NCBI RefSeq assembly: GCF_014270105.1
Contig: NZ_JACNMF010000005.1
Coordinates: 62,001-126,000, forward strand
Reading direction: 5' to 3'
DNA: 64,000 nucleotides
Source of the DNA: Hyunsoonleella aquatilis
Lineage (GTDB): Bacteria; Bacteroidota; Bacteroidia; Flavobacteriales; Flavobacteriaceae
Numbering within the stretch: position 1 is the stretch's first letter; each line of letters starts with the position of its first letter. The notes beneath the pieces were generated by a model, which was not told the DNA's origin, ran no database searches, and saw only the letters and a program-made list of their open reading frames with translations. Both the position numbers and the translations under genes were made by a program. Positions 6,976 to 38,946 of the stretch are shown one piece after another.

Positions 6976-8139
6976 TTACTTTGAAGCAAACAATTTTACG
7001 TCCTGTTCGCTAACTTCCTTGCCTCCTAAGATAATCAAACGCTCGATAACATTACGCAGTTCCCTGATATTTCCGGTCCAATCATAATCTTGGAGTAATT
7101 TGATAGCTTTATCAGAAAAGTTCTTCTGAGCCGTACCCTGCTCGTCTGCAATTTTCTTTGAAAAATGTTTTACCAGCAACGGAATGTCCTCACGCCTGTC
7201 GTTTAATGCAGGCACTTTTATTAAAATAACAGCGAGGCGATGGTATAAATCCTCTCTAAACTTACCTTCTTCGATTTCCTTCTTCAGGTCTTTATTGGTG
7301 GCAGCAACCACGCGAACGTCCACTTTTATATCCTTATCGCTACCGACTCTTTGCACCCGGCTTTCCTGCAGAGCTCTTAGCACCTTTGCCTGGGCAGACA
7401 AACTCATATCACCGACCTCATCCAAAAAAATTGTGCCTCCGTTAGCCGCTTCAAACTTCCCCGCACGATCTTTATTCGCACTGGTAAAAGCCCCTTTTAC
7501 ATGCCCGAACAATTCACTTTCAATCAATTCGCTTGGAATGGCCGCACAGTTTACTTCAATCATCGGGCCTTTCACTCGCTCACTTTTTTCGTGAAGCCAG
7601 TGGGCTACCAATTCCTTGCCCGTTCCATTGGGTCCAGTGATCAAAACCCTGGCGTCGGTTGGAGCCACCTTATCGATCATTTCCTTAATCTGGGAAATGG
7701 AATCGCTCTCACCAATCATTTCATATTTCTTGCTGACCTTCTTTTTAAGAATTTTGTTTTCAACTACAAGTTCCTTTCTATCCAATGCATTCCTAACTGT
7801 GTTCAACAGTCGGTTTAAATCTGGCGGTTTTGAAATATAATCAAACGCCCCCAAACGCATGGTATTCACGGCCGTATCTAAATCACCATGACCAGAAATC
7901 ATCACCATGGGTACTTCAGGCTTTATTTTTTTTGTGGCTTCCAAAACTTCAACACCATCCATTTTTGGCATTTTGATATCACACAATACCAAATCAAAAT
8001 CCTCTTTTTTGATTTTGTCCACACCACTCAATCCGTCTTCTGCTTCGGAAACTTGGTAGGTATCATTTTCTTCTGATAGTATTTTGACCAACACACGCCT
8101 AATAGCGGCTTCATCTTCAATAATCAATATTTTTGGCAT
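6976..8139 (-). CDS. Sigma-54-type response regulator lacking a DNA-binding domain
   Basis: A 387-residue NtrC-family regulator. Residues 1-120 form a receiver with acidic pocket IIEDE, phospho-acceptor Asp in LCDIKMPKMDG (about residue 54) and SKPP. Residues about 142-370 form the AAA+ ATPase: Walker A GPNGTGKE, then ELFGHVKGAFTSANKDR, Walker B GGTIFLDEVGD. Two features are odd. The sigma-54 contact motif is GAFTSA instead of GAFTGA, and the protein ends about 15 residues after the AAA+ lid region (EVSEQDVKLFASK) with no Fis-type HTH. It may act from solution or not on sigma-54 at all. It is the last gene of a five-gene minus-strand operon, 4 bases after the preceding stop. No cognate kinase is adjacent. 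Confidence 0.9.
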   Translation of the reverse strand: MPKILIIEDEAAIRRVLVKILSEENDTYQVSEAEDGLSGVDKIKKEDFDLVLCDIKMPKMDGVEVLEATKKIKPEVPMVMISGHGDLDTAVNTMRLGAFDYISKPPDLNRLLNTVRNALDRKELVVENKILKKKVSKKYEMIGESDSISQIKEMIDKVAPTDARVLITGPNGTGKELVAHWLHEKSERVKGPMIEVNCAAIPSELIESELFGHVKGAFTSANKDRAGKFEAANGGTIFLDEVGDMSLSAQAKVLRALQESRVQRVGSDKDIKVDVRVVAATNKDLKKEIEEGKFREDLYHRLAVILIKVPALNDRREDIPLLVKHFSKKIADEQGTAQKNFSDKAIKLLQDYDWTGNIRELRNVIERLIILGGKEVSEQDVKLFASK

Positions 8140-28392: not shown

Positions 28393-29238
28393 TTAGGGAT
28401 CAAAATTGGTCATCACTAAAAACGGAAAGTTAAAATTGTAGGCAATCTGCTCTTCTGGATAGGTTTTTAGCAAACGCTCAAAAAAGGAATGCTGTTTTTT
28501 TACCATGCCCAACATTTTAAAGTTGTTCATGTACATGTATTCCGTAATTGCACTAACTATATCTTGATCTTCTGCATCAATATATTCGTGCCTGGCATCA
28601 CTAAAATGCTCATCAAAGAAAGCGAGATTGATGGATTGTTTACTGGCTATGCTATGCTTATCTGCCAAATGCAAAATGGTAAGATTGGCGTCATGTTTCT
28701 TCAAAATCGACTTCATAGCCAAAAGGGTTTCGCTATTGTACAAAGCAATATGATTGGCGGTAAATGCCACTTTGCGCAAGCCTTCGTACCTACAGTTTTT
28801 GGGGATGGCCAAAATGGGGGTTTTGCAACGATTAATGACGTGTACAGTGTTACTCCCAAATAATATTCTATCCAAACCTGTTGCTCCTTTAGTACCCATC
28901 ACTATCAAATCGATTTGGTATTTTTCCACAGCTTGATTAATGGCATCCACAAAATTGTCATAATCCACAATGGAGAAAAAATGATGCTTTTTGTTAGGGT
29001 TTTTCTGTTGCTGTGTCGTTATAATATTTTCAATTGATTTTTTGGCTGCATCCACCAAAGTCTTATAAATAGTGGCCGAAGAATCCACCACCAACATGTC
29101 GTCCGAAATAAATGCCGAAGCCTTCTGTACATTTAAAAGGTAAAAATTACAAGGCTGGTCTTGGAACATTGCAACTGCATATTCAATGGCATTCAATGAA
29201 TTGCTAGAGAAATCCGTTGGTAGTAATATTGCTTTCAT
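28393..29238 (-). CDS. Universal stress protein, two-domain
   Basis: A 281-residue UspA-family protein made of two Usp folds. The first (residues 1-146) begins MKAILLPTDFSSNSLNAIEYA and carries a complete G-2x-G-9x-G-S ATP-binding motif (GTKGATGLDRILFGSNT). The second (about 150-281) has degenerate ligand residues and lacks the glycine motif. Likely an ATP-binding stress protein. It is divergent from the cyclic-nucleotide-binding sigma-54 activator; their 147-base shared region contains a perfect 14-bp palindrome, so common control is plausible. Confidence 0.92.
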   Translation of the reverse strand: MKAILLPTDFSSNSLNAIEYAVAMFQDQPCNFYLLNVQKASAFISDDMLVVDSSATIYKTLVDAAKKSIENIITTQQQKNPNKKHHFFSIVDYDNFVDAINQAVEKYQIDLIVMGTKGATGLDRILFGSNTVHVINRCKTPILAIPKNCRYEGLRKVAFTANHIALYNSETLLAMKSILKKHDANLTILHLADKHSIASKQSINLAFFDEHFSDARHEYIDAEDQDIVSAITEYMYMNNFKMLGMVKKQHSFFERLLKTYPEEQIAYNFNFPFLVMTNFDP

Positions 29239-29385: not shown

Positions 29386-31245
29386 ATGGATTACATTTCA
29401 ATTATGGCAGAAGAGGTTTCCATAAATCTTATTCAATTTTTGGCGGATATTCCGTTTTTTTCTGAAGTTTCGAATAAATCACTTAAACATTTATGCGATA
29501 ATGTCGCTAAAGAGACCTTTATCAAAAATGAAGTGGTTTTTGAAAAAAACACAATAGGACAAGCCATGTACGCCATTTTGGAAGGCTCCGTAAAAGTCCA
29601 TGATAAAAGCCACATTTATGACACCCTTTCGGTAGGTGATTGCTTTGGGGAATACGCCCTAATTGACAATGAAACACGTTCGGCCTCGGTTACGGCATTG
29701 GAAAAAATTAAAGTATTAAAAATTGAACGTGATGATTTTTTGGATTTGTTGCAACAGGATAGCGGATTTGCCCAGGGCATTTTGTCGGTAATGATAAAAC
29801 GGCATCGCGAATTGGATACAATCCAGGAACGTTTGGCGACTTCCAAAACTGAGCTTGAAAACGCCAACAGTAAATTAAGCGGGTTGATTAATGGCGCGAT
29901 GGATGCCATTATTATGTTTAATAGCAGTTTAAGAGTCGTACTAACCAATACTTCTGCTAATAAACTACTGGAGAATGATGATATTTTGCAACGTAACGTG
30001 CTGTTCTTTTTTGATGAAAACAGCGCTACTATTATTGAGAAGATTGTAAAATCAGAAGACAATAAAGAAGTTAATAGATATTTGCCAAGTATTGTGAAAG
30101 TGATAGGCTCCAATGGCACGGAAACTTTAAATGAAGGAACAATTAGCAAATATGGTCCGAGCGATAATCCCTTTTACACTTTGATCCTTAGAAATATCGA
30201 AGACCGGTTAATTGCCGAAGACAAAATAAATTTGCTCACTAAACAAACCGAATACCTTGAAGAAGAAATCAAGGAATTAACCAGCAGTTATGGGATTATT
30301 GCCGAGGATGCCAAGATGCAAAATACTTTAAATTTGGTGCATCAAGTGGCCAAAACAGATGCCACCGTACTGATCCATGGCGAAACGGGGACAGGTAAGG
30401 AATTGGTGGCGCGCGCCATCCACAAGGAAAGCAACAGAAACGATAAGCCACTTATACGCATCAATTGTGGAGCCATACCAGCCAATTTAATTGAAAGTGA
30501 ATTATTTGGGCATAAAAAAGGAGCATTTACTGGAGCCACAGTTGACCGCAAGGGGCGATTTTTGTTAGCGGACAAAGGCACCATCTTTTTGGATGAAATT
30601 GGCGAAATGCCTCTAGAATTGCAACCCAAATTGCTTCGCGTTATCCAAGAAGGGGAGTTTGACCCCGTAGGGAGCTCAGAAACAGTAAAAGTAGATGTTC
30701 GGATTATCGCTGCTACCCACAGAAACCTATTCGAGTTTTCAAAAGAAGGCAAGTTTAGGGAAGATTTGTTTTACCGATTAAATGTTTTCCCCATTTCCGT
30801 TCCAGCACTCAGGGAACGTGGTAACGATATTTGTTTGATAGCTGAGGAAATGGTGTCTCAATTTTCAAAAAAACTGAACAAACCCATAGTCGCTCTGTCC
30901 GAAAAGGATAAGTCCCTCCTAAACTCCTACCACTGGCCCGGTAATGTCCGTGAGCTTCAAAATCTTATCGAACGGGCGGTTATCATCTCCAATAATGGCA
31001 AAATAGACTGGAAATCGGTGCTTCCCGGAAATTCAATTTCTAAAAATGAAAACGAAAAAATTCCCACCAAAAACATTTTGACTTCTAAAGAGCTTGTTAA
31101 TTTAGAAAGGGAAAATATATTGAAGGCCCTCCGGCAAACCAAGTGGAAAATTTCTGGTAAAAATGGAGCAGCCGAACTTTTGGATTTACCACCCACTACC
31201 CTAGCCTCTCGGATTAAAGCCTTGGGCATCGAAAGACCCATATAA
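29386..31245 (+). CDS. Sigma-54 activator with cyclic-nucleotide-binding, PAS, AAA+ and Fis-HTH domains
   Basis: A 619-residue regulator. Residues about 12-130 are a cNMP-binding fold with the phosphate cassette FGEYALIDNETRSASV, including the Gly-Glu and Arg that contact the ligand. Residues about 150-165 are a coiled linker, 165-275 a PAS-like domain (INGAMDAIIMFNSSLRVVLT). The AAA+ domain (about 303-530) has Walker A GETGTGKE, intact sigma-54 loop GAFTGA and Walker B GTIFLDEIGE. The C-terminus (about 570-617) is a Fis-type HTH (GKNGAAELLDLPPTTLASRI). An alternative start is ATG 29404. Just downstream lies a sigma-54 promoter region preceding osmC-nifJ, its likely target. It is divergent from usp. 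Confidence 0.93.
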   Translation: MDYISIMAEEVSINLIQFLADIPFFSEVSNKSLKHLCDNVAKETFIKNEVVFEKNTIGQAMYAILEGSVKVHDKSHIYDTLSVGDCFGEYALIDNETRSASVTALEKIKVLKIERDDFLDLLQQDSGFAQGILSVMIKRHRELDTIQERLATSKTELENANSKLSGLINGAMDAIIMFNSSLRVVLTNTSANKLLENDDILQRNVLFFFDENSATIIEKIVKSEDNKEVNRYLPSIVKVIGSNGTETLNEGTISKYGPSDNPFYTLILRNIEDRLIAEDKINLLTKQTEYLEEEIKELTSSYGIIAEDAKMQNTLNLVHQVAKTDATVLIHGETGTGKELVARAIHKESNRNDKPLIRINCGAIPANLIESELFGHKKGAFTGATVDRKGRFLLADKGTIFLDEIGEMPLELQPKLLRVIQEGEFDPVGSSETVKVDVRIIAATHRNLFEFSKEGKFREDLFYRLNVFPISVPALRERGNDICLIAEEMVSQFSKKLNKPIVALSEKDKSLLNSYHWPGNVRELQNLIERAVIISNNGKIDWKSVLPGNSISKNENEKIPTKNILTSKELVNLERENILKALRQTKWKISGKNGAAELLDLPPTTLASRIKALGIERPI

Positions 31246-31249
31246 CTTC

Positions 31250-31300
31250 ACGATATTTCGTTGATTTAATTACGATATTTCGTTAATATTCGAATTATCG
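31250..31300 (+). promoter_or_regulatory. Array of three CGA-N4-TCG dyads, candidate activator-binding (UAS) sites
   Basis: Two identical 13-mers ACGATATTTCGTT at 31250-31262 and 31272-31284 (22 bases apart), each containing the dyad CGA-N4-TCG, and a third, degenerate dyad CGAATTATCG at 31291-31300. They lie 60-110 bases upstream of a -24/-12 element, the usual place for enhancer sites of sigma-54 activators. Binding by the activator at 29386-31245 is inferred. Confidence 0.7.
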
Positions 31301-31340
31301 CGATTGATTTTATTTCCCTATTTTGATTTATATAATTGAT

Positions 31341-31353
31341 TATCAATTACTTA
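31341..31353 (+). promoter_or_regulatory. IHF-consensus match between UAS and promoter
   Basis: TATCAATTACTTA fits WATCAANNNNTTR at every position. It overlaps a larger palindrome AATTGAT-T-ATCAATT (31334-31348). DNA bending between enhancer and promoter is typical of sigma-54 systems; the IHF consensus is from enterobacteria, so use here is inference. Confidence 0.45.
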
Positions 31354-31360
31354 TTTAGTT

Positions 31361-31376
31361 TGGCACGCCAATCGCA
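31361..31376 (+). promoter_or_regulatory. Sigma-54 (-24/-12) promoter of osmC-nifJ
   Basis: TGGCACGCCAATCGCA matches TGGCACG-N4-TTGCA with one mismatch and keeps the invariant GG (31362-31363) and GC (31374-31375) exactly 10 bases apart. Transcription would start near 31387, 48 bases before the osmC ATG. Confidence 0.75.
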
Positions 31377-31434
31377 TTAAACCAATCAAACATTTAAAAA
31401 AATCAATTATTAATCAAATTAAAAATTAGAAAAC

Positions 31435-31989
31435 ATGATTACTACAGCAAATGTAAAAAACGGAGTTAACGTTGATCAATTAGTAGAAACTATTGGACAC
31501 ATCCAAGAACAACCAGAATTAGCAAAATTTGAATTCAGAGCGAAAAACAACTGGATCGAAGGCGGACACTGTGTGTCTGACATTAAAGGATTCTACGGTG
31601 CAGGTCAGGAAGACACTACGCGTCAAGAAACTTTTACTATGGAATGTGGGCATCCACATGTACTTTTGGGAGACGATAAAGGTGCTACGCCACCAGAGGT
31701 TGTATTGCACGCTTTAAGCTCTTGTTTAACCGCTGCAATGGTGTACCATGCCGCTGCTAATGGTATTGACATTGAAGGTGCAGAATCTACCATAAAAGGT
31801 GATGCAGATTTACACGGATTTTTAGGATTGGATCCTGAAGTGAGAACCGGTTTTAATGGCATCACTATGCAATTAAAAGTAAAATCTGATGCTTCTGCTG
31901 AGCAGTTGGAAAGACTAGCCAAGTTCTCTCCAGTATTTGATATGATTTCAAACCCTACTCCAGTTTCTATCGAAATTGTAAAGGAGTAA
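31435..31989 (+). CDS. OsmC-family peroxidase
   Basis: A 184-residue thiol-dependent peroxide-detoxifying protein. The OsmC/Ohr fold is complete: NNWIEGGHCVSDIKGFYG, the first redox cysteine region FTMECGHPHVLLGDDKGATP and the second, HALSSCLTAAMVYHAA, followed by the long helix and a C-terminal SNPTPVSIEIVKE. It belongs to the YhfA-like wing of the family, which often contains an extra conserved Cys. It lies directly behind the sigma-54 promoter and ahead of nifJ; a terminator between the two may leave nifJ partly dependent on readthrough or an own promoter. Confidence 0.92.
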   Translation: MITTANVKNGVNVDQLVETIGHIQEQPELAKFEFRAKNNWIEGGHCVSDIKGFYGAGQEDTTRQETFTMECGHPHVLLGDDKGATPPEVVLHALSSCLTAAMVYHAAANGIDIEGAESTIKGDADLHGFLGLDPEVRTGFNGITMQLKVKSDASAEQLERLAKFSPVFDMISNPTPVSIEIVKE

Positions 31990-32005
31990 CATCCATCATA
32001 AAAAA

Positions 32006-32037
32006 ATGGCTACCGATTAAGCGTAGCCATTTTTTTC
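32006..32037 (+). terminator. Terminator between osmC and nifJ
   Basis: ATGGCTAC pairs with GTAGCCAT over a 9-base loop, followed by TTTTTTT. It sits 17 bases after osmC and 22 bases before nifJ, so it may attenuate the downstream oxidoreductase. Confidence 0.85.
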
Positions 32038-32058
32038 TTCTTCAAACACCACCATAAA

Positions 32059-35000
32059 ATGAAAACTTCTACCCATAACATAGTAAACGCTAACCAAGCA
32101 GTTGCTTTAATGGCTTATAAAACTAATGCGGTTTTCCCAATTTATCCCATTACACCGGCTTCTGAAATGAGTGAACTGGCAGAGCAATGGAGTGCGGAAA
32201 ACAAACAAAATGTTTTTGGGCAAATCCCTTCGGCGTTTCAAATGCAAAGTGAAGCCGGCGTTGCCGGAGCCATGCACGGTGCCTTGCAAACAGGAAGTTT
32301 ATCTACAACATTTACAGCATCACAAGGTTTACTTTTGATGTTGCCCAATATGTATAAAATAGCCGGGGAATTGACCCCAAATGTGATTCACGTTGCCACG
32401 AGAAGCATTGCCACCCACGCCTTGTCCATTTTTGGGGACCATAGTGATGTGATGGCCGTTCGCCAGTCGGGATATGCTATGTTGGCCAGTGCAACGGTTC
32501 AGGAGGCGCATGATTTTGCCTTAATTTCACAATCAGCTTCACTGGAATCCCGCATTCCATTTGTGCATTTTTTCGATGGCTTTAGAACCTCGCATGAAAT
32601 TAACAACATCGAACTAATGGATGATGAAACCATTCTTTCGTTAATCAATCCAAACCATATTAAACGTCATGCCGAAAATGCCTTAACTCCAAACAACCCT
32701 GTTTTAAGAGGCACCTCACAAGCGGAAGATGTATTTTTCCAAAGTAGGGAAGCTATCAATCCGTTTTATAATGCCTGCCCAGATATTGTTCAAAATGCAA
32801 TGGATAAGTTTGGCGAATTAACGGGAAGACATTATCAGCTTTTTGAATATTTCGGTCATCCCGAAGCTGAACACCTTATTATTTCCATGGCATCATCCAC
32901 AGAAACCATTGAAAGCACTATCAATCATTTCAACAAAAAAGGTGAAAAATACGGGTTGATTAAAGTTAGACTGTTTAGGCCTTTCAGCACAAAACATTTG
33001 ATTTCGGCTTTGCCAAAATCGGTAAAATCCATAGCCGTTTTAGACCGCACCAAAGAGCCTGGAACATCAGGCGAACCTTTATATTTGGATACGCTCCAAT
33101 CCATTTTTGAAGCCTACCAAAATAAAAAACTATCCACTTTCCCTGAAGTTATTGGAGGCCGTTACGGACTGTCTTCAAAGGAATTTACCCCATCCATGGT
33201 GAACGCCATTTTTCAAAATCTAAAAAGCGAAAATCCTAAACGCAATTTTACCGTTGGAATAAAAGACGATGTCACTCATTTAAGCCTCGATATTTCAGAA
33301 TCCATCAACATCAATACAAATAAATATCAAGCCATCTTTTATCATGAAAAAGAAGCTACCCCTGATTTTGTAAACGCCCTAAAACTCGTCGGAGCAAAGG
33401 ACAATACTTTTGTTCAGGGCTATACTCAAATCAATTATAAAAAATCGAATTCATACAATATATCTCATTTAAGAATAGGTGATGCACCCATAAAGTCACC
33501 CTATTTAATCGAGGATGCCGACTTTATTGGCTGTCAAAATGCACACTTCACTAAAAACGATACAATTTTTCACAACTTAAAACCAGAGGGCACGCTTTTG
33601 GTCAACACTTCACAAACGTCAAAAGCATTTTGGCAGTCGCTTTCGGCTGAAAATCAAGAGTTAATTATTAAAAAACAAATCAATCTTTTTATTGTCAACA
33701 TTGATGAATTAAAAGCAAATCAAACTTTAAAACCTAATGACCTATCAGAGTTTTTTGGCTGTCTTTTAGCAATGAAAAAAGACCTTTACTATGATGATAA
33801 CGTTGCGGATTTAGGCGAATGGATTTATAAAGTGGATATTGCTTCAACTTCTAAAAAAGTTTCATCAAATGAAGCATTTGACAAAACCTTTAACGAAAGC
33901 CTTTTGGGTCAACTTTTATCCGGAAAAGGCGATGACATCCCAGTAAGTTTAATGCCTGCGGATGGCACCTACCCAACAGACACTTCTAGATTCAATCCAG
34001 TACAAAATAATAGTTATTTACCCAATTGGGATACAGATTTTTGTACTCAATGTGGCGCATGTAGTATGGCCTGCCCTCAATCTGCACTTCGAATCAAGGT
34101 TTATAACGAAGAGAATTTTAATGACACTCCAAAAGCCTTTAAGCATATTCCTTCGGCTGATTTCGACTTGATGCAATACACCATTCAAATTAATCCAGAA
34201 CAGTGTAATGGATGCAATAATTGTGTGGATGCCTGTCCTGTTAAAGCATTGACCTTGAAAACCCAAGACGAATTAGAAGAAGCCAAAAAGAATTGGAACT
34301 ATTTTGAAACGATTCCAGAATTTGACCGCACAAAAATTGATGTTGCGAAAGTAAGCCAGCAACAATTGCAAGAACCTTTATTTAAATATTCAAGTGGTGT
34401 TGAAGGTTGTGGTGAGGCGCCTTACCAAAAATTGATGTCCCAATTGTTTGGGGACAGACTGTTAATAGCGAATGCAACCGGAGCCAGTTCAATTTTCGGG
34501 GGCGCTTTACCCACAACACCTTGGGCCAAAAATAAAGATGGACACGGGCCAGCTTGGTCAAATTCACTTTTTGAAGACAACGCGGAATTTGGTTTGGGCT
34601 TTAGAATGTCTATCAACCAAAAGGAAAAAGAGGCGAAATATCTTTTGGATTCTTTGCGCGAAGCATTGGACAATGATTTGATTGACAAAATCCTAAACGC
34701 AAAGCAAACCACCGAGTTGGAAATTCAGGAACAACGAAAAAATATAGACTTGCTTAATCTAGAATTGGCAAAGCTAAAATCAAAGGAAGCTTTACAACTT
34801 TTGGATATTTCTGAAAATTTAATCAAAAAAAGTGTTTGGCTCGTTGGTGGTGACGGGTGGGCCTACGATATTGGCTACGGCGGTATTGACCACGTTTTAG
34901 CTTCGGGCGAGAATGTAAATATTTTGGTTTTGGACAACGAGGTTTACGACAATACAGGAGCACAGGCTTCAAAAGCCACACCATTCGGAGCACAGGCTAA

Positions 35001-35535
35001 ATTTGCTTTCAATGGAAAACAAAAGCAGAAAAAGGATTTAGGGCGCTTAGCGATGACCTACGACAATGTTTATGTGGCATCGGTTGCCATCGGTGTAGAC
35101 CAAGAGCAAACCCTAAAAGCTTTCAACGAAGCCGAAAGTTTTAATGGGCCGTCGATAATTATTGCGTATTGCCACAGTGCTTCACATGGCATTGACGTGA
35201 AACACCCAAGTCAATACCACAAATTGGCTGTGGCTTCCGGACAATGGTTGTTATATCGAAACGATCCTCGCCGAATGGAAAAAAGATTAAACCCAATGCA
35301 ATTGGATTCAGGTGTTCCTTCTATAAAAATACAGGAGTATTTGAAGCTAGAAAAACGGTTTTCAAAATTGTTTCAAAAGGACGAGGCACAATTCAAAACC
35401 CTAATGAAAATAGCTCAAAAACAGGTGGGTGATCGATTTGACAAGTATTTGGCAATGGCCTCCTTAGAAAGCAAAGTCAACAGAAATAAACTGATTCAAG
35501 ATAACCGCATCAAAAGGCAATTGACTTATAAATAA
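32059..35535 (+). CDS. nifJ: Pyruvate:ferredoxin/flavodoxin oxidoreductase homologue
   Basis: A 1158-residue single-chain enzyme that oxidises pyruvate to acetyl-CoA and CO2, reducing ferredoxin or flavodoxin. Domain order is complete: pyruvate-binding domain (IYPITPASEMSELAEQW near residue 30), middle domains, a 2[4Fe-4S] ferredoxin domain (CTQCGACSMACP at about 662 and CNGCNNCVDACP at about 716) and the TPP domain (GDGWAYDIGYGG, NTGAQASKATP). A striking point is the proximal cluster: of its four usual cysteines only C784 is kept; the others are Val781, Ala809 and Ser1040 (with a displaced C1038). The gene follows osmC and converges with 3 bases on the cyclase fusion gene. Confidence 0.93.
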   Translation: MKTSTHNIVNANQAVALMAYKTNAVFPIYPITPASEMSELAEQWSAENKQNVFGQIPSAFQMQSEAGVAGAMHGALQTGSLSTTFTASQGLLLMLPNMYKIAGELTPNVIHVATRSIATHALSIFGDHSDVMAVRQSGYAMLASATVQEAHDFALISQSASLESRIPFVHFFDGFRTSHEINNIELMDDETILSLINPNHIKRHAENALTPNNPVLRGTSQAEDVFFQSREAINPFYNACPDIVQNAMDKFGELTGRHYQLFEYFGHPEAEHLIISMASSTETIESTINHFNKKGEKYGLIKVRLFRPFSTKHLISALPKSVKSIAVLDRTKEPGTSGEPLYLDTLQSIFEAYQNKKLSTFPEVIGGRYGLSSKEFTPSMVNAIFQNLKSENPKRNFTVGIKDDVTHLSLDISESININTNKYQAIFYHEKEATPDFVNALKLVGAKDNTFVQGYTQINYKKSNSYNISHLRIGDAPIKSPYLIEDADFIGCQNAHFTKNDTIFHNLKPEGTLLVNTSQTSKAFWQSLSAENQELIIKKQINLFIVNIDELKANQTLKPNDLSEFFGCLLAMKKDLYYDDNVADLGEWIYKVDIASTSKKVSSNEAFDKTFNESLLGQLLSGKGDDIPVSLMPADGTYPTDTSRFNPVQNNSYLPNWDTDFCTQCGACSMACPQSALRIKVYNEENFNDTPKAFKHIPSADFDLMQYTIQINPEQCNGCNNCVDACPVKALTLKTQDELEEAKKNWNYFETIPEFDRTKIDVAKVSQQQLQEPLFKYSSGVEGCGEAPYQKLMSQLFGDRLLIANATGASSIFGGALPTTPWAKNKDGHGPAWSNSLFEDNAEFGLGFRMSINQKEKEAKYLLDSLREALDNDLIDKILNAKQTTELEIQEQRKNIDLLNLELAKLKSKEALQLLDISENLIKKSVWLVGGDGWAYDIGYGGIDHVLASGENVNILVLDNEVYDNTGAQASKATPFGAQAKFAFNGKQKQKKDLGRLAMTYDNVYVASVAIGVDQEQTLKAFNEAESFNGPSIIIAYCHSASHGIDVKHPSQYHKLAVASGQWLLYRNDPRRMEKRLNPMQLDSGVPSIKIQEYLKLEKRFSKLFQKDEAQFKTLMKIAQKQVGDRFDKYLAMASLESKVNRNKLIQDNRIKRQLTYK

Positions 35536-35538
35536 TGG

Positions 35539-38500
35539 TTATTTGACCTTCATTCGATTAAAGGTTTCCCAATCTTCCGGAGCACCGGAATCGACATATT
35601 TCAAGGATAAGCCCATAAAATAATTGGCAACCCCGTCTTTTGGATTTTTAGTCAATACCTTCTGAAAATGTTTTGATGCTTTTTTAAATTCCTTTTGCAA
35701 AAAGCATTCAAAACCTTTATCAAAATCGGTTAAGGTTTTCTTTTTTAAGGCAATGCTTTCTTCTTCGTCACCATCAAAACACTCATAAATACCGATAACA
35801 TCATTTTTGCCTTTGGCCATCACTTTTCCGAGGAACCTAAAATTAAAATTGGCTTTGCCTTTTACGGTTTCCAAACTGTTTTCGCTTAACACAATTTTAG
35901 CTCCGTAGTATTTTGAAACGCCTTCCACCCGAGACGCCGTATTGACCGTATCCGAAATTATAGCAGGATCATTTCTTGTGTCATCTCCAATGATGCCCAT
36001 TACCAAAGGGCCGGTATGAAATCCCATACCTACCGAAATTTCCCGATACCCTTCCAAAAGCCGTCTTTTATTATATTCTGAAATCGCTTTTTGCATTTCA
36101 ATGGATGCTTTGAGCGCATGTGTGGCATCCTCTGGAAACAGTGCCATAATACCATCGCCAATATACTGGTTGACAAAGCCCTTATTATTATTAATGTGAG
36201 GACCCATTCGGCGTACATAAGCGCTCACGAATTTAAAATTTTGCTTCGGCGTCATGGATTCAGAAAGGGAAGTATAGTCTCGTACGTCTGTAAACAATAC
36301 AGTGATTTCTTTCTTGCGATGATCTCCAAGCTTGGCTTCCGTGATGGACTCCCTTCCGATGGATTTTAAAAATTCCGATGGCACAAATTTGCTCGTTGCC
36401 TTGTGGATGCCGTAAAGGTTAAGATGGGTTTTAATTCGGCTTAACAACTCATTTTTTGAAATCGGTTTGGTGAGGTAATCGTTAGCCCCTGCGTTAAACC
36501 CAGTAACCAAATCGCTCACCCTATTTTTTGCGGTTAAAAGAATAATAGGCAATTCGCTGGCTAGGTAGGTTTTTCTGATGGTTTCACAGACCTCGTAACC
36601 GGACATATAGGGCATCATAATATCCAACAAAACCAAATCAAATTTTAAACCTTTGTCCAATAATGCCAGAGCCTCACTGCCGCTGCTAACCTCCTTAACG
36701 CCGTAGCCTGTCAATGTTAAATGGCTTTCCAACACACGCCGGTTAATTGGCTCATCATCAACAATTAAGATTTTGATTTGGGATGCATCGAGCTCCGCGC
36801 CTGCCGGAGTCTCAACGATAGTATTATCCAAATCATCAGGCACAACTTCTTGAATGATTTCTTCTTTTATTTCAATTATATCCGCTTCGTCAGCATCACT
36901 AATCGGTAATGTGAAACTGAATGTAGAGCCCACTCCAAGTTCAGAATCTACCTTGATTTCGCCACCGTGTAATTCTACCAATTGTTTTGTGACGGAAAGC
37001 CCCAACCCTGTGCCTGAATATGCTCTAGCTTCCGAACCATCCACTTGCTCAAAAGATTTAAAAATATCCTTGAGTTTTTCTTTTGCGATGCCGATTCCAG
37101 TATCCGAAATGAATATCAGGAGTTTATCTTCTTGTTCCTCAGCATCTATTGTTATAAATCCACTTTCAGTAAACTTAATGGCATTCCCTATCAGATTATA
37201 TAGTATCTGTTCTAGCCTGTTTTCATCGGCTTCCACCAATGGTGCCGAAGCCGGAATATTGTTTACTAAGGTTATGTCCTTTCCTCCTATTAAGGTTTTG
37301 GATATTTTTAAAACCAAATCCGCCACGGCATGAATATGCATTGGTTTTGGCGACAATTTTAAATCTTGGTTCTTCAATTTTGAAAAATCCAAAATATCGT
37401 TGACCAAGTTGGATAGACGCCTCCCACTACTTGTAATCATATCCAAGCTTTCAGTTGCTTTTTTCGATAATTTCCCTCCCGCTCCATCTTTTAAGGATTC
37501 CGATAAACCGATAATTCCGTTTAACGGTGTACGCAATTCGTGAGAGGTATTGGCCAGGAATTCGTCTTTCAATTTATCGATCTTTTCTAGTTCTAGCCGT
37601 CGCTCCTGCTCCGCTTTGGCTTTGGCTACCATGCGTGCGTTTTCTATCTCCTTTTGCTCAAGCGATCGCCGATATTGAAATCGTTTATACACTATGAAAG
37701 CAATCAACAATACCAACACTACTATGGCAATGGCTATATTTCTAAATGTGGTTTGCCGTTTTAACTTCAAGTTTTTTATTTCCGCGTCCTTTTCAAGAGC
37801 GATAATGGCGTTTTGCTTTTTTTCTGTATCAAACCGTGTCTGAAGTTCCTCAATTTGTTGGGATTTAGTCTCGTTGTACAAACTGTCCTTTACCTGAGCC
37901 AATTTTATGCTGTATTCTAGGGCATTCTCATAATCACTTTGCGCTTTGAATAGTTTGAAGAAAATATCATAGTTCAACATTAAACGTTCCTTGTCACCTA
38001 AATTCTTAGCTATTTCTGTAGACATTTTTAGGAACTTTTCAGCTTCATCATAATTTTTTAATTGAGTGTAGTTTTTACCCAGTTCTGTATAACTCATGGA
38101 GAGTTCCCGTTTTTGTTGCAACTCCTCCCTAATCTTAAGGGCCTGAAAATGATAATTCAGTGCTTTGTGGTAATCCCCCTTAATACTAGCGACTTTCCCC
38201 ATAGCCTCGAGGTCATAGGCCATTCCCCACTGACTACCAACCGCTTTATCAAGTTCAAAGGCATTTTCAAAATATGTGGTAGCTTTATCGTATTCCTTGA
38301 GAATCAAATAAGTATCACCGATATTATAGTTACAATTGGCCAGTTGCATTGTATCATCCAATTCGGTATAAATCTCAATCGCACTTCGGTAAGTTTCAAG
38401 CGCCGTATCGTATTTACCAGCTTTTTTTAAATTTTCACCAATAGCGTTGAGTGTGAAACCTTTTCCGAATGCATGGTTTTGCTCCTCGTAAATCTTTAAA

Positions 38501-38946
38501 ATATCATAGTAAATCTTTAAACTTTCCTCCGACTCCCCTTGATCATCTAGAATAATAGCCTTTTGATAGAGCCCATCGGCCTGCGCAAGAATTTCATTAC
38601 TATTTTTTGCATGTTGAATAAACTCCTCAAAATACGCCAGCGCTTTGGTATAATCACCCCTTTGACGTTCCAAAACCCCATATTGATACTTGGACATGGC
38701 AACATACCGTTGCAGATCGTGCCTCAAACTAAAATTGTGAAAACTATCGATCCTTTTTTCCGCCTCCTCGTTATCCGCTCTGGAATTCAGATATTCCCAT
38801 GAAATATCTTTCAACATTTGCGCCTTAAGTGAATCGGAAGTGGTGTTTCGAAAAACGGATACTAGGCTATCTATTTTTTTTGTTTGACTGTGAATTTTAC
38901 AGTTGAGAGAGAACAATACCAGTATGCAAAAGACATATTTCATCAA
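35539..38946 (-). CDS. TPR - histidine kinase - receiver - class III nucleotide cyclase fusion
   Basis: A 1135-residue membrane sensor. A signal peptide precedes about eight TPR repeats (residues 40-370, periplasmic), a membrane helix (about 402-422), HisKA (ANTSHELRTPLNG, His at about 471) and HATPase (NAIKFTES, SDTGIGIA, GTGLGLSV). A receiver follows (VLLDIMMP, Asp at about 773), then a class III cyclase with both metal-binding Asp (VLFTDVRDYT at about 879; GDGIMALFP at about 933) and the Asn/Arg of DTVNTASRVE (about 1000). The adenine-selecting Thr/Asp position is Ala, so product (cAMP or cGMP) is uncertain. A short TPR-like tail ends the protein. Convergent with nifJ. Confidence 0.9.
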   Translation of the reverse strand: MMKYVFCILVLFSLNCKIHSQTKKIDSLVSVFRNTTSDSLKAQMLKDISWEYLNSRADNEEAEKRIDSFHNFSLRHDLQRYVAMSKYQYGVLERQRGDYTKALAYFEEFIQHAKNSNEILAQADGLYQKAIILDDQGESEESLKIYYDILKIYEEQNHAFGKGFTLNAIGENLKKAGKYDTALETYRSAIEIYTELDDTMQLANCNYNIGDTYLILKEYDKATTYFENAFELDKAVGSQWGMAYDLEAMGKVASIKGDYHKALNYHFQALKIREELQQKRELSMSYTELGKNYTQLKNYDEAEKFLKMSTEIAKNLGDKERLMLNYDIFFKLFKAQSDYENALEYSIKLAQVKDSLYNETKSQQIEELQTRFDTEKKQNAIIALEKDAEIKNLKLKRQTTFRNIAIAIVVLVLLIAFIVYKRFQYRRSLEQKEIENARMVAKAKAEQERRLELEKIDKLKDEFLANTSHELRTPLNGIIGLSESLKDGAGGKLSKKATESLDMITSSGRRLSNLVNDILDFSKLKNQDLKLSPKPMHIHAVADLVLKISKTLIGGKDITLVNNIPASAPLVEADENRLEQILYNLIGNAIKFTESGFITIDAEEQEDKLLIFISDTGIGIAKEKLKDIFKSFEQVDGSEARAYSGTGLGLSVTKQLVELHGGEIKVDSELGVGSTFSFTLPISDADEADIIEIKEEIIQEVVPDDLDNTIVETPAGAELDASQIKILIVDDEPINRRVLESHLTLTGYGVKEVSSGSEALALLDKGLKFDLVLLDIMMPYMSGYEVCETIRKTYLASELPIILLTAKNRVSDLVTGFNAGANDYLTKPISKNELLSRIKTHLNLYGIHKATSKFVPSEFLKSIGRESITEAKLGDHRKKEITVLFTDVRDYTSLSESMTPKQNFKFVSAYVRRMGPHINNNKGFVNQYIGDGIMALFPEDATHALKASIEMQKAISEYNKRRLLEGYREISVGMGFHTGPLVMGIIGDDTRNDPAIISDTVNTASRVEGVSKYYGAKIVLSENSLETVKGKANFNFRFLGKVMAKGKNDVIGIYECFDGDEEESIALKKKTLTDFDKGFECFLQKEFKKASKHFQKVLTKNPKDGVANYFMGLSLKYVDSGAPEDWETFNRMKVK

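Follow-up and report, generated by a model that had tools for sequence, protein, structure and literature searches.

What licenses a sigma-54 activator is phosphorylation, a small molecule or a partner protein, and cyclic AMP (cAMP) acts through CRP-type proteins, at sigma-70 promoters. A locus of the flavobacterium Hyunsoonleella aquatilis raises the question of whether these two kinds of control can meet in one protein and, if so, where the nucleotide would be made and which gene it would regulate. The locus lies in a stretch of 64,000 nucleotides (contig NZ_JACNMF010000005.1, positions 62,001 to 126,000; hereafter the window) and comprises a sigma-54 enhancer-binding protein with a cyclic-nucleotide-binding (CNB) domain, osmC, a PFOR homologue and a fusion protein that contains a class III cyclase. 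We put at about three in four the probability that these parts form a chain leading from a cyclase through a cyclic nucleoside monophosphate (cNMP), the activator and sigma-54 to osmC, with the sign of control left open. This reading finds good support in the comparison of sequences.

The four open frames stand where the original prediction had placed them (29386..38946), and their domains and the convergence of the fusion with the PFOR homologue were borne out by frame and Pfam analysis. The activator (29386..31245, forward strand, 619 aa) is built as CNB, PAS-like region, AAA+ and HTH_8. It is followed on the same strand by osmC (31435..31989), which encodes an OsmC-family protein of 184 aa, and by the PFOR homologue (32059..35535, 1158 aa), in which Pfam finds POR domains. 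The fusion (35539..38946, reverse strand, 1135 aa, listed start TTG) carries the Pfam domains TPR, HisKA, HATPase_c, Response_reg and Guanylate_cyc.

Does the activator have the means to bind a cNMP? Pfam cNMP_binding matches residues 44-125 (29515..29760, forward) at 70.4 bits, with a cut-off of 27.5. Full-length orthologs, 54-83% identical, occur in 31 genomes besides the window's own within a family draw of 299 (the window's own included), which gives 32 activator-positive and 267 activator-negative genomes. Throughout the 32 aligned orthologs the CNB residues F87 G88 E89 Y90, D94 and R98 S99 A100 are invariant, and the Glu and Arg of the phosphate-binding cassette of a cNMP-binding domain are among them; the cassette that had been described as intact is indeed so. 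The nearest solved domains to a CNB profile built from 18 of the 32 orthologs are those of PKG, PKA and CRP-type proteins. On the strength of the invariant cassette and the domain matches, the ligand is likely a cyclic nucleotide, with its base left open. No Pfam match to the CRP-type C-terminal winged helix appears in the activator, which has AAA+ and HTH_8 there instead: Sigma54_activat at residues 304-470 (247.8 bits; 30295..30795, forward) together with an AAA lid, a GAFTGA motif at 379-384 that is invariant in 32/32 orthologs, and HTH_8 at 572-612 (22.5 bits, cut-off 22). The region from the CNB domain to the ATPase matches PAS_9 weakly, at 23.2 bits and thus under the cut-off of 27. A structure of the CNB-PAS half, predicted without an alignment, had a mean predicted local distance difference test score of 46.9 and was discarded. 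As in other sigma-54 enhancer-binding proteins, a GAFTGA AAA+ domain and HTH_8 go together with upstream sites, a -24/-12 promoter and a genomic rpoN (one match in the window's genome). Searched with the activator, the same genome gave three AAA+ matches and one CNB match besides the activator itself.

The sites that such a protein would use lie between the activator and osmC. In the window, three palindromic enhancer-type sites (ACGATATTTCGT, ACGATATTTCGT and TCGAATTATCGC; 31250..31301, forward) occupy 31250-31261, 31272-31283 and 31290-31301, that is, they follow each other in steps of 22 and 18 bp. Downstream are an IHF-like site TATCAATTACTTA (31341..31353, forward) and a sigma-54-type promoter of the -24/-12 kind, TTTGGCACGCCAATCGCAT (31359..31377, forward), whose first T sits 76 bp before osmC. 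All 32 osmC genes have a sigma-54-type promoter preceded by palindromes ACGANNNNTCGT. Over 30 loci (G011 and G222 were read separately; G and L numbers are our handles for genomes and loci) the best promoter-like site starts 60-76 bp upstream of osmC, and in 30/30 the T, C and A that flank the -24 GG are constant, as is the -12 G, the constancy of the GG itself being built in because the script demanded it and kept the best-scoring site. With the exact 22/18-bp steps, a score of 19 or more out of 24 is reached by 29 of the 32 osmC upstream regions (29 of the 34 that were examined). The exceptions are L046 and L064, with 21/18 steps, and L065, with two good sites and a weak middle one. No shuffle out of 3400 and no other window of the same loci out of 4388 reached 19, the highest score being 16 in both controls. 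Used as a pattern with at most three mismatches, the triple was found in 29/299 family genomes, all of them activator-positive, and in 0/267 activator-negative ones; the pattern was built from these same loci, and its backward control matched once. In 29/32 osmC promoters the best match to the assumed IHF consensus falls at the window's offset.

The original prediction had placed a sigma-54 control region directly downstream of the activator. Such a region exists and is conserved, with the correction that operator and promoter are those of osmC. That it might control the activator's own gene was rejected, as it stays with osmC in L037, L047 and G222, where the two genes have come apart. Similarly, osmC and the PFOR homologue had been named as joint targets; the conserved operator and promoter speak for osmC, and no second operator triple was seen within the loci.

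Of the 32 matches to the triple pattern, 28 lie at osmC and four elsewhere, all within activator-positive genomes. The four (L096, L097, L098, L099) precede AhpC/TSA-type thioredoxin-like genes in G240 and G219, a TauE-type gene in G169, and in G148 a methyltransferase gene that is itself followed by an AhpC/TSA-type thioredoxin-like gene. By eye, a TGGCA-type promoter follows each of them. In L096 the operon under the extra triple faces a convergent TPR-cyclase gene.

Conserved linkage in relatives had been set beforehand as a test of the proposal, and it holds for osmC, for the PFOR homologue and for the cyclases. In the stretches taken around the activator from all 31 relatives and in the window, 30/32 genomes have osmC downstream of the activator within one stretch, with inserted genes separating the two in L037 and L047. 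G011 has the activator close to a contig end and osmC close to the beginning of a different contig, and in G222 osmC and the PFOR homologue are about 90 kb from the activator. The PFOR homologue follows osmC in 31/32 genomes; L046 (G219) has none, and that of G148 stands behind an insert and is truncated by a contig end. The divergent neighbour of the activator is a universal stress protein in the window (28393..29238, reverse, Pfam) and a cyclase of about 680 aa in 14/31 relatives. The other genome of the same genus in the draw (G132) has no activator. In a class-wide draw of 295 genomes, which does not show how many members belong to the same family, the whole CNB-PAS half was found at E 1e-20 only in the window's own genome; two partial matches (L185, L186) came in addition, and in L186 the CNB domain by eye belongs to a different kind of protein. 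A profile scan of further genomes relied on patterns that fell in the AAA+ domain, and among the 80 loci listed from it none matches the CNB domain.

Where, then, would the nucleotide be made? Matches to PF00211 occur in 32/32 activator genomes (106 in all) against 137/267 activator-negative ones, and two types of cyclase are found at or near the locus. Relatives of the fusion, counted at no less than 56% across the cyclase and C-terminal part, are present in 18 activator-positive genomes and one negative; left out of this count are the shorter frames or weaker matches of eight genomes, at 41-47%. Relatives of the 680-aa cyclase, counted at no less than 42% across 637 residues or more, are present in 18 positives and two negatives. 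Thus one or both types occur in 32/32 positives (four with both) versus 3/267 negatives. In 28/32 genomes the activator has a class III cyclase no more than 10 kb away on its contig, where uniform placement would give 0.56. The place of the cyclase is on the divergent side of the activator, on the convergent side of the PFOR homologue or on both, and L065 has an additional third cyclase, of membrane type. Contig breaks intervene in G011 and G148, yet the cyclase adjoins osmC-PFOR or the PFOR end on another contig, and in G222 it sits beside the relocated osmC-PFOR pair. Six genera of the draw (g1, g18, g19, g20, g22, g60) contain a positive as well as a negative genome; a counted cyclase is present in the positive member in 6/6 and in the negative member in 1/6 (G246, a remnant). 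The three negatives with a cyclase (G246, G005, G024) carry it beside its usual neighbours, namely a DUF4870 gene and a cytochrome / Tat-type / DsrE-like set, and G005 also keeps broken PFOR pieces. Because the cyclase keeps the neighbours of this locus, the activator was probably lost in these genomes. A mere hot-spot effect as the source of the link was rejected, given that 3/267 negatives have the cyclase, all with neighbours of this locus.

The original prediction saw the kinase-cyclase fusion as the source of the cyclic nucleotide. This stands in so far as a cyclase is linked, but the fusion is only one of two interchangeable types. Since 14/32 activator genomes hold only the cyclase of about 680 aa, which has TPRs, a phosphorelay input is not general, and the idea of a phosphorelay signal as the common input had to be given up.

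The cyclase domain of the fusion (residues 877-1050; 35797..36318, reverse) was compared with those of L035-L065, L100, L102, L103 and L187-L191. Two metal-binding Asp and the transition-state Asn and Arg of class III cyclases are present in these 41 domains, which were found with a motif that partly presupposes them. At the position where solved cyclases have a purine-selecting Lys, Gln stands in 41/41 domains, across two otherwise dissimilar cyclase families. The second purine-selecting position, as we presume to place it, holds Ala in the fusion or Asp in the 680-aa type, so that the canonical Lys with Asp or Thr does not occur.

Put together, we propose the following sequence of events. 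The input domain of the activator would bind a 3',5'-cyclic nucleotide made by the co-inherited cyclase, mostly encoded at the same locus. In the window, cNMP would be produced by the TPR-kinase-receiver-cyclase fusion in answer to a phosphorelay or extracytoplasmic signal; relatives would use the cyclase of about 680 aa, with its TPRs, in the fusion's stead. Bound nucleotide, relayed via the PAS-like region, would gate the AAA+ ring, and the AAA+ multimer would sit on the three phased palindromes, at about -135 to -84. From there the activator would remodel sigma-54 polymerase at the -24/-12 promoter, with transcription predicted to begin near 31387, and switch osmC on, perhaps together with the PFOR homologue by read-through.

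Several points weigh against this chain. On the ligand side, activator genomes have 5 to 32 CNB-domain matches each and thus other possible cNMP receptors, and the real sensor of the activator could be its PAS-like region. On the cyclase side, most activator genomes have further cyclases, the cyclase of G145 is unlinked and elsewhere in the genome, and neither product nor activity of the cyclases is assured because Gln replaces Lys. The cyclase counts also depend on the cuts chosen. Below them fall G079, with a 53% match to the fusion's cyclase domain, and, for the 680-aa type, G082 and G182 (48-50% over about 355 residues) and G037 (31%), all activator-negative. We take the G079 match as another protein because its 4.5-kb contig matches nothing of the fusion but the cyclase domain, neither kinase nor TPR parts. 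The genomes are related, so that p values for the 10-kb linkage overstate it. Less open to this inflation are the within-genus contrasts and the swaps of cyclase type on the activator tree: by parsimony each type changes seven times (e.g. the window's genome, with a fusion, stands beside G265 and G044, with the 680-aa type), a number that may be too high as the tree is poorly resolved, with 17/31 inner branches weak.

Two other explanations of the locus were weighed. The activator might answer a different ligand (redox, heme, a metabolite or cyclic di-GMP (c-di-GMP)) through its CNB or PAS-like region, with the cyclases linked for an unrelated reason such as membership of the same stress island. 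CNB-fold domains can bind other ligands, as in FNR-type proteins. Clp binds c-di-GMP through a CNB-fold domain (PMC10333796). A PAS-like region is present here too, as are other stress-type genes at the locus. We nevertheless regard a different ligand as distinctly unlikely, since the cassette is of cNMP type and invariant, the cyclase type swaps while a counted cyclase is retained in 32/32 genomes, and two GAF-type relatives of the activator described below show no cyclase match. Alternatively, the linked cyclases might feed a general cNMP pool for other CNB or CRP proteins and be neighbours through shared stress, with the activator reading that pool or none. The number of CNB-domain and PF00211 matches given above would suit such a pool. 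Against it, G265, G044 and G250 have no PF00211 match other than the adjacent cyclase, and the two cyclase types are nearly confined to activator genomes, which makes this explanation highly improbable.

A further variant keeps the proposed chain and reverses its sign, in that cNMP would hold the activator off and the cyclase would shut osmC down. In some enhancer-binding proteins the sensor domain keeps the protein inactive, the sequence does not fix the sign, and no direct point speaks against the reversal; we consider it unlikely.

How does this chain compare with known systems? In its CNB domain the activator resembles CRP-type cAMP receptors, which share the motif Glu ... Arg-Ser-Ala and whose chains the profile matched. 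CRP has its own winged helix and acts at sigma-70 promoters; the output here is AAA+/sigma-54. CNB-sigma-54 architectures presumably exist in Pfam. PMC3162934 states that Pfam lists about 136 architectures. The activator is like the type Ib enhancer-binding proteins treated there in its GAFTGA AAA+ domain, HTH_8, upstream sites and -24/-12 promoter, and differs in its cNMP-type CNB input and co-inherited cyclase; the inputs named for the class in the part of the source consulted are receiver, PAS, GAF and phosphotransferase-system-related domains, with no CNB named (PMC3162934). In FleQ, FlrA and VpsR a second messenger likewise acts on an NtrC-type activator, but theirs is c-di-GMP, bound by the AAA+ family proteins themselves, while the system described here has a separate CNB domain and a mononucleotide cyclase (PMC10333796). 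RtcR, a CARF-domain activator of sigma-54 promoters, is similar in that its proposed licensing signal is a nucleic-acid-type ligand, and different in its CARF fold, a ligand with a terminal 2',3'-cyclic phosphate and the lack of a class III cyclase (PMC9879122). We found no description of a cNMP-gated sigma-54 activator in the open PubMed Central literature, which is weak evidence of absence as subscription papers are mostly outside it. If the chain is real, cAMP-type and sigma-54 control would come together in a cNMP-gated activator that has a cyclase of its own. Moreover, class III cyclases of this family would gain a definite output, testable at one promoter with a precise operator, and the exchange of cyclase types around a fixed activator would be a natural experiment in sensor swapping.

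Some relatives hint at where the system came from. The best-scoring among the loci listed in the profile scan, L104 (a Desulfobulbaceae metagenome-assembled genome), has a GAF-PAS-AAA+-HTH activator directly before an osmC gene that is 44% identical. By eye, three similar sites (in steps of 23/18) and a sigma-54-like promoter lie between the two genes; at the fixed 22/18 spacing the region scores 15, no better than chance windows. A paralog in G154 (L192) is a GAF-PAS activator divergent from another osmC, with one clear site. Both share PAS-AAA+-HTH and an adjacent osmC with the activator of the window and differ from it in having GAF in place of CNB; in neither stretch was a match at 1e-4 found for either cyclase type or for the PFOR homologue. 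These two cases suggest that an old activator-osmC module exchanged its GAF sensor for CNB and that the cyclases joined the locus afterwards.

What would the circuit regulate? The OsmC protein matches Pfam OsmC at 50.2 bits and chain 2opl_A at E 1e-45. Its C46 and C97 are invariant in 32/32, as is the Ser in KFSPVFD, which we take to be the position where the second catalytic Cys of OsmC/Ohr proteins is expected. The PFOR homologue, by comparison, is unusual. Its residues for thiamine diphosphate (ThDP) are kept (T32, E65 and R115 in 31/31; D932 and N965 in 30/31, with one gap), and so are the eight cysteines of two ferredoxin-type 4Fe-4S clusters (31/31). Of the four cysteines that, on our assumption from solved PFORs, bind the proximal 4Fe-4S cluster, one is kept in 31/31, two are lost in 31/31 and the last is lost in 29/29 readable sequences (V781, A809 and S1040 in the window). 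These counts leave out L046, L054 and L059, which have no PFOR homologue in the stretch, with G011 and G222 entering via L100 and L103. Canonical PFORs of activator-negative genomes have all four proximal cysteines in 5/5. Moreover, among 100 genomes searched with TIGR02176, a low-scoring class (1358-1428 bits) occurs in 10, exactly the activator-positive ones, and a high-scoring class (1717-1756 bits) in another 10, all activator-negative; 14 more have only sub-cut-off matches, including the broken pieces of G005 and a contig-end piece in G066. We therefore rejected the homologue as an ordinary PFOR. Ordinary pyruvate oxidation, the second arm of the original prediction, is doubtful because the 31 homologues examined have lost most cysteines of the proximal cluster, and that arm is not supported. 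A PFOR homologue without a full proximal cluster poses a separate enzymological question. Any control of it would, as an unproven possibility, be by read-through from the osmC promoter. The gap between the two genes holds a terminator- or attenuator-like hairpin with a 7-bp stem plus a T-run (32007..32036, forward), and a hairpin with a T-run is found at this place in 13/30.

A fuller picture, which we hold tentatively and at somewhat less than even odds, is that of a self-contained second-messenger circuit. A GAF sensor would have given way to CNB, and cyclases would have been recruited, exchanged and sometimes doubled; local cNMP would drive osmC via a rigid three-site enhancer, and the PFOR homologue, an enzyme with ThDP and iron-sulfur clusters, would carry out another reaction or use another electron path, in connection with thiol or reactive-sulfur stress.

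Other genes near the locus or under the triples are of the LysR-type, Dps-like, AhpC/TSA, TauE, DsrE-like and SoxA/TsdA-like kinds, and they suggest a role in thiol, peroxide or reactive-sulfur stress. A LysR-type (OxyR-like) regulator and a Dps-like gene, labelled by eye, are directly upstream of the activator in L060 and L101. Frames of the same sizes occur in L050, L051, L057, L059 and L061, and a regulator-sized frame only in L058. A SoxA/TsdA-like c-type cytochrome is grouped with Tat-type and DsrE-like proteins near the locus in L048 (by Pfam), L187, L188 and L189, and by frame size also in L041, L045, L046 and L053. The group occurs in the activator-less remnants as well. Elsewhere in the window, a second sigma-54 activator (6976-8139, reverse) has a receiver and an AAA+ domain with lid, and no HTH_8 match in Pfam.

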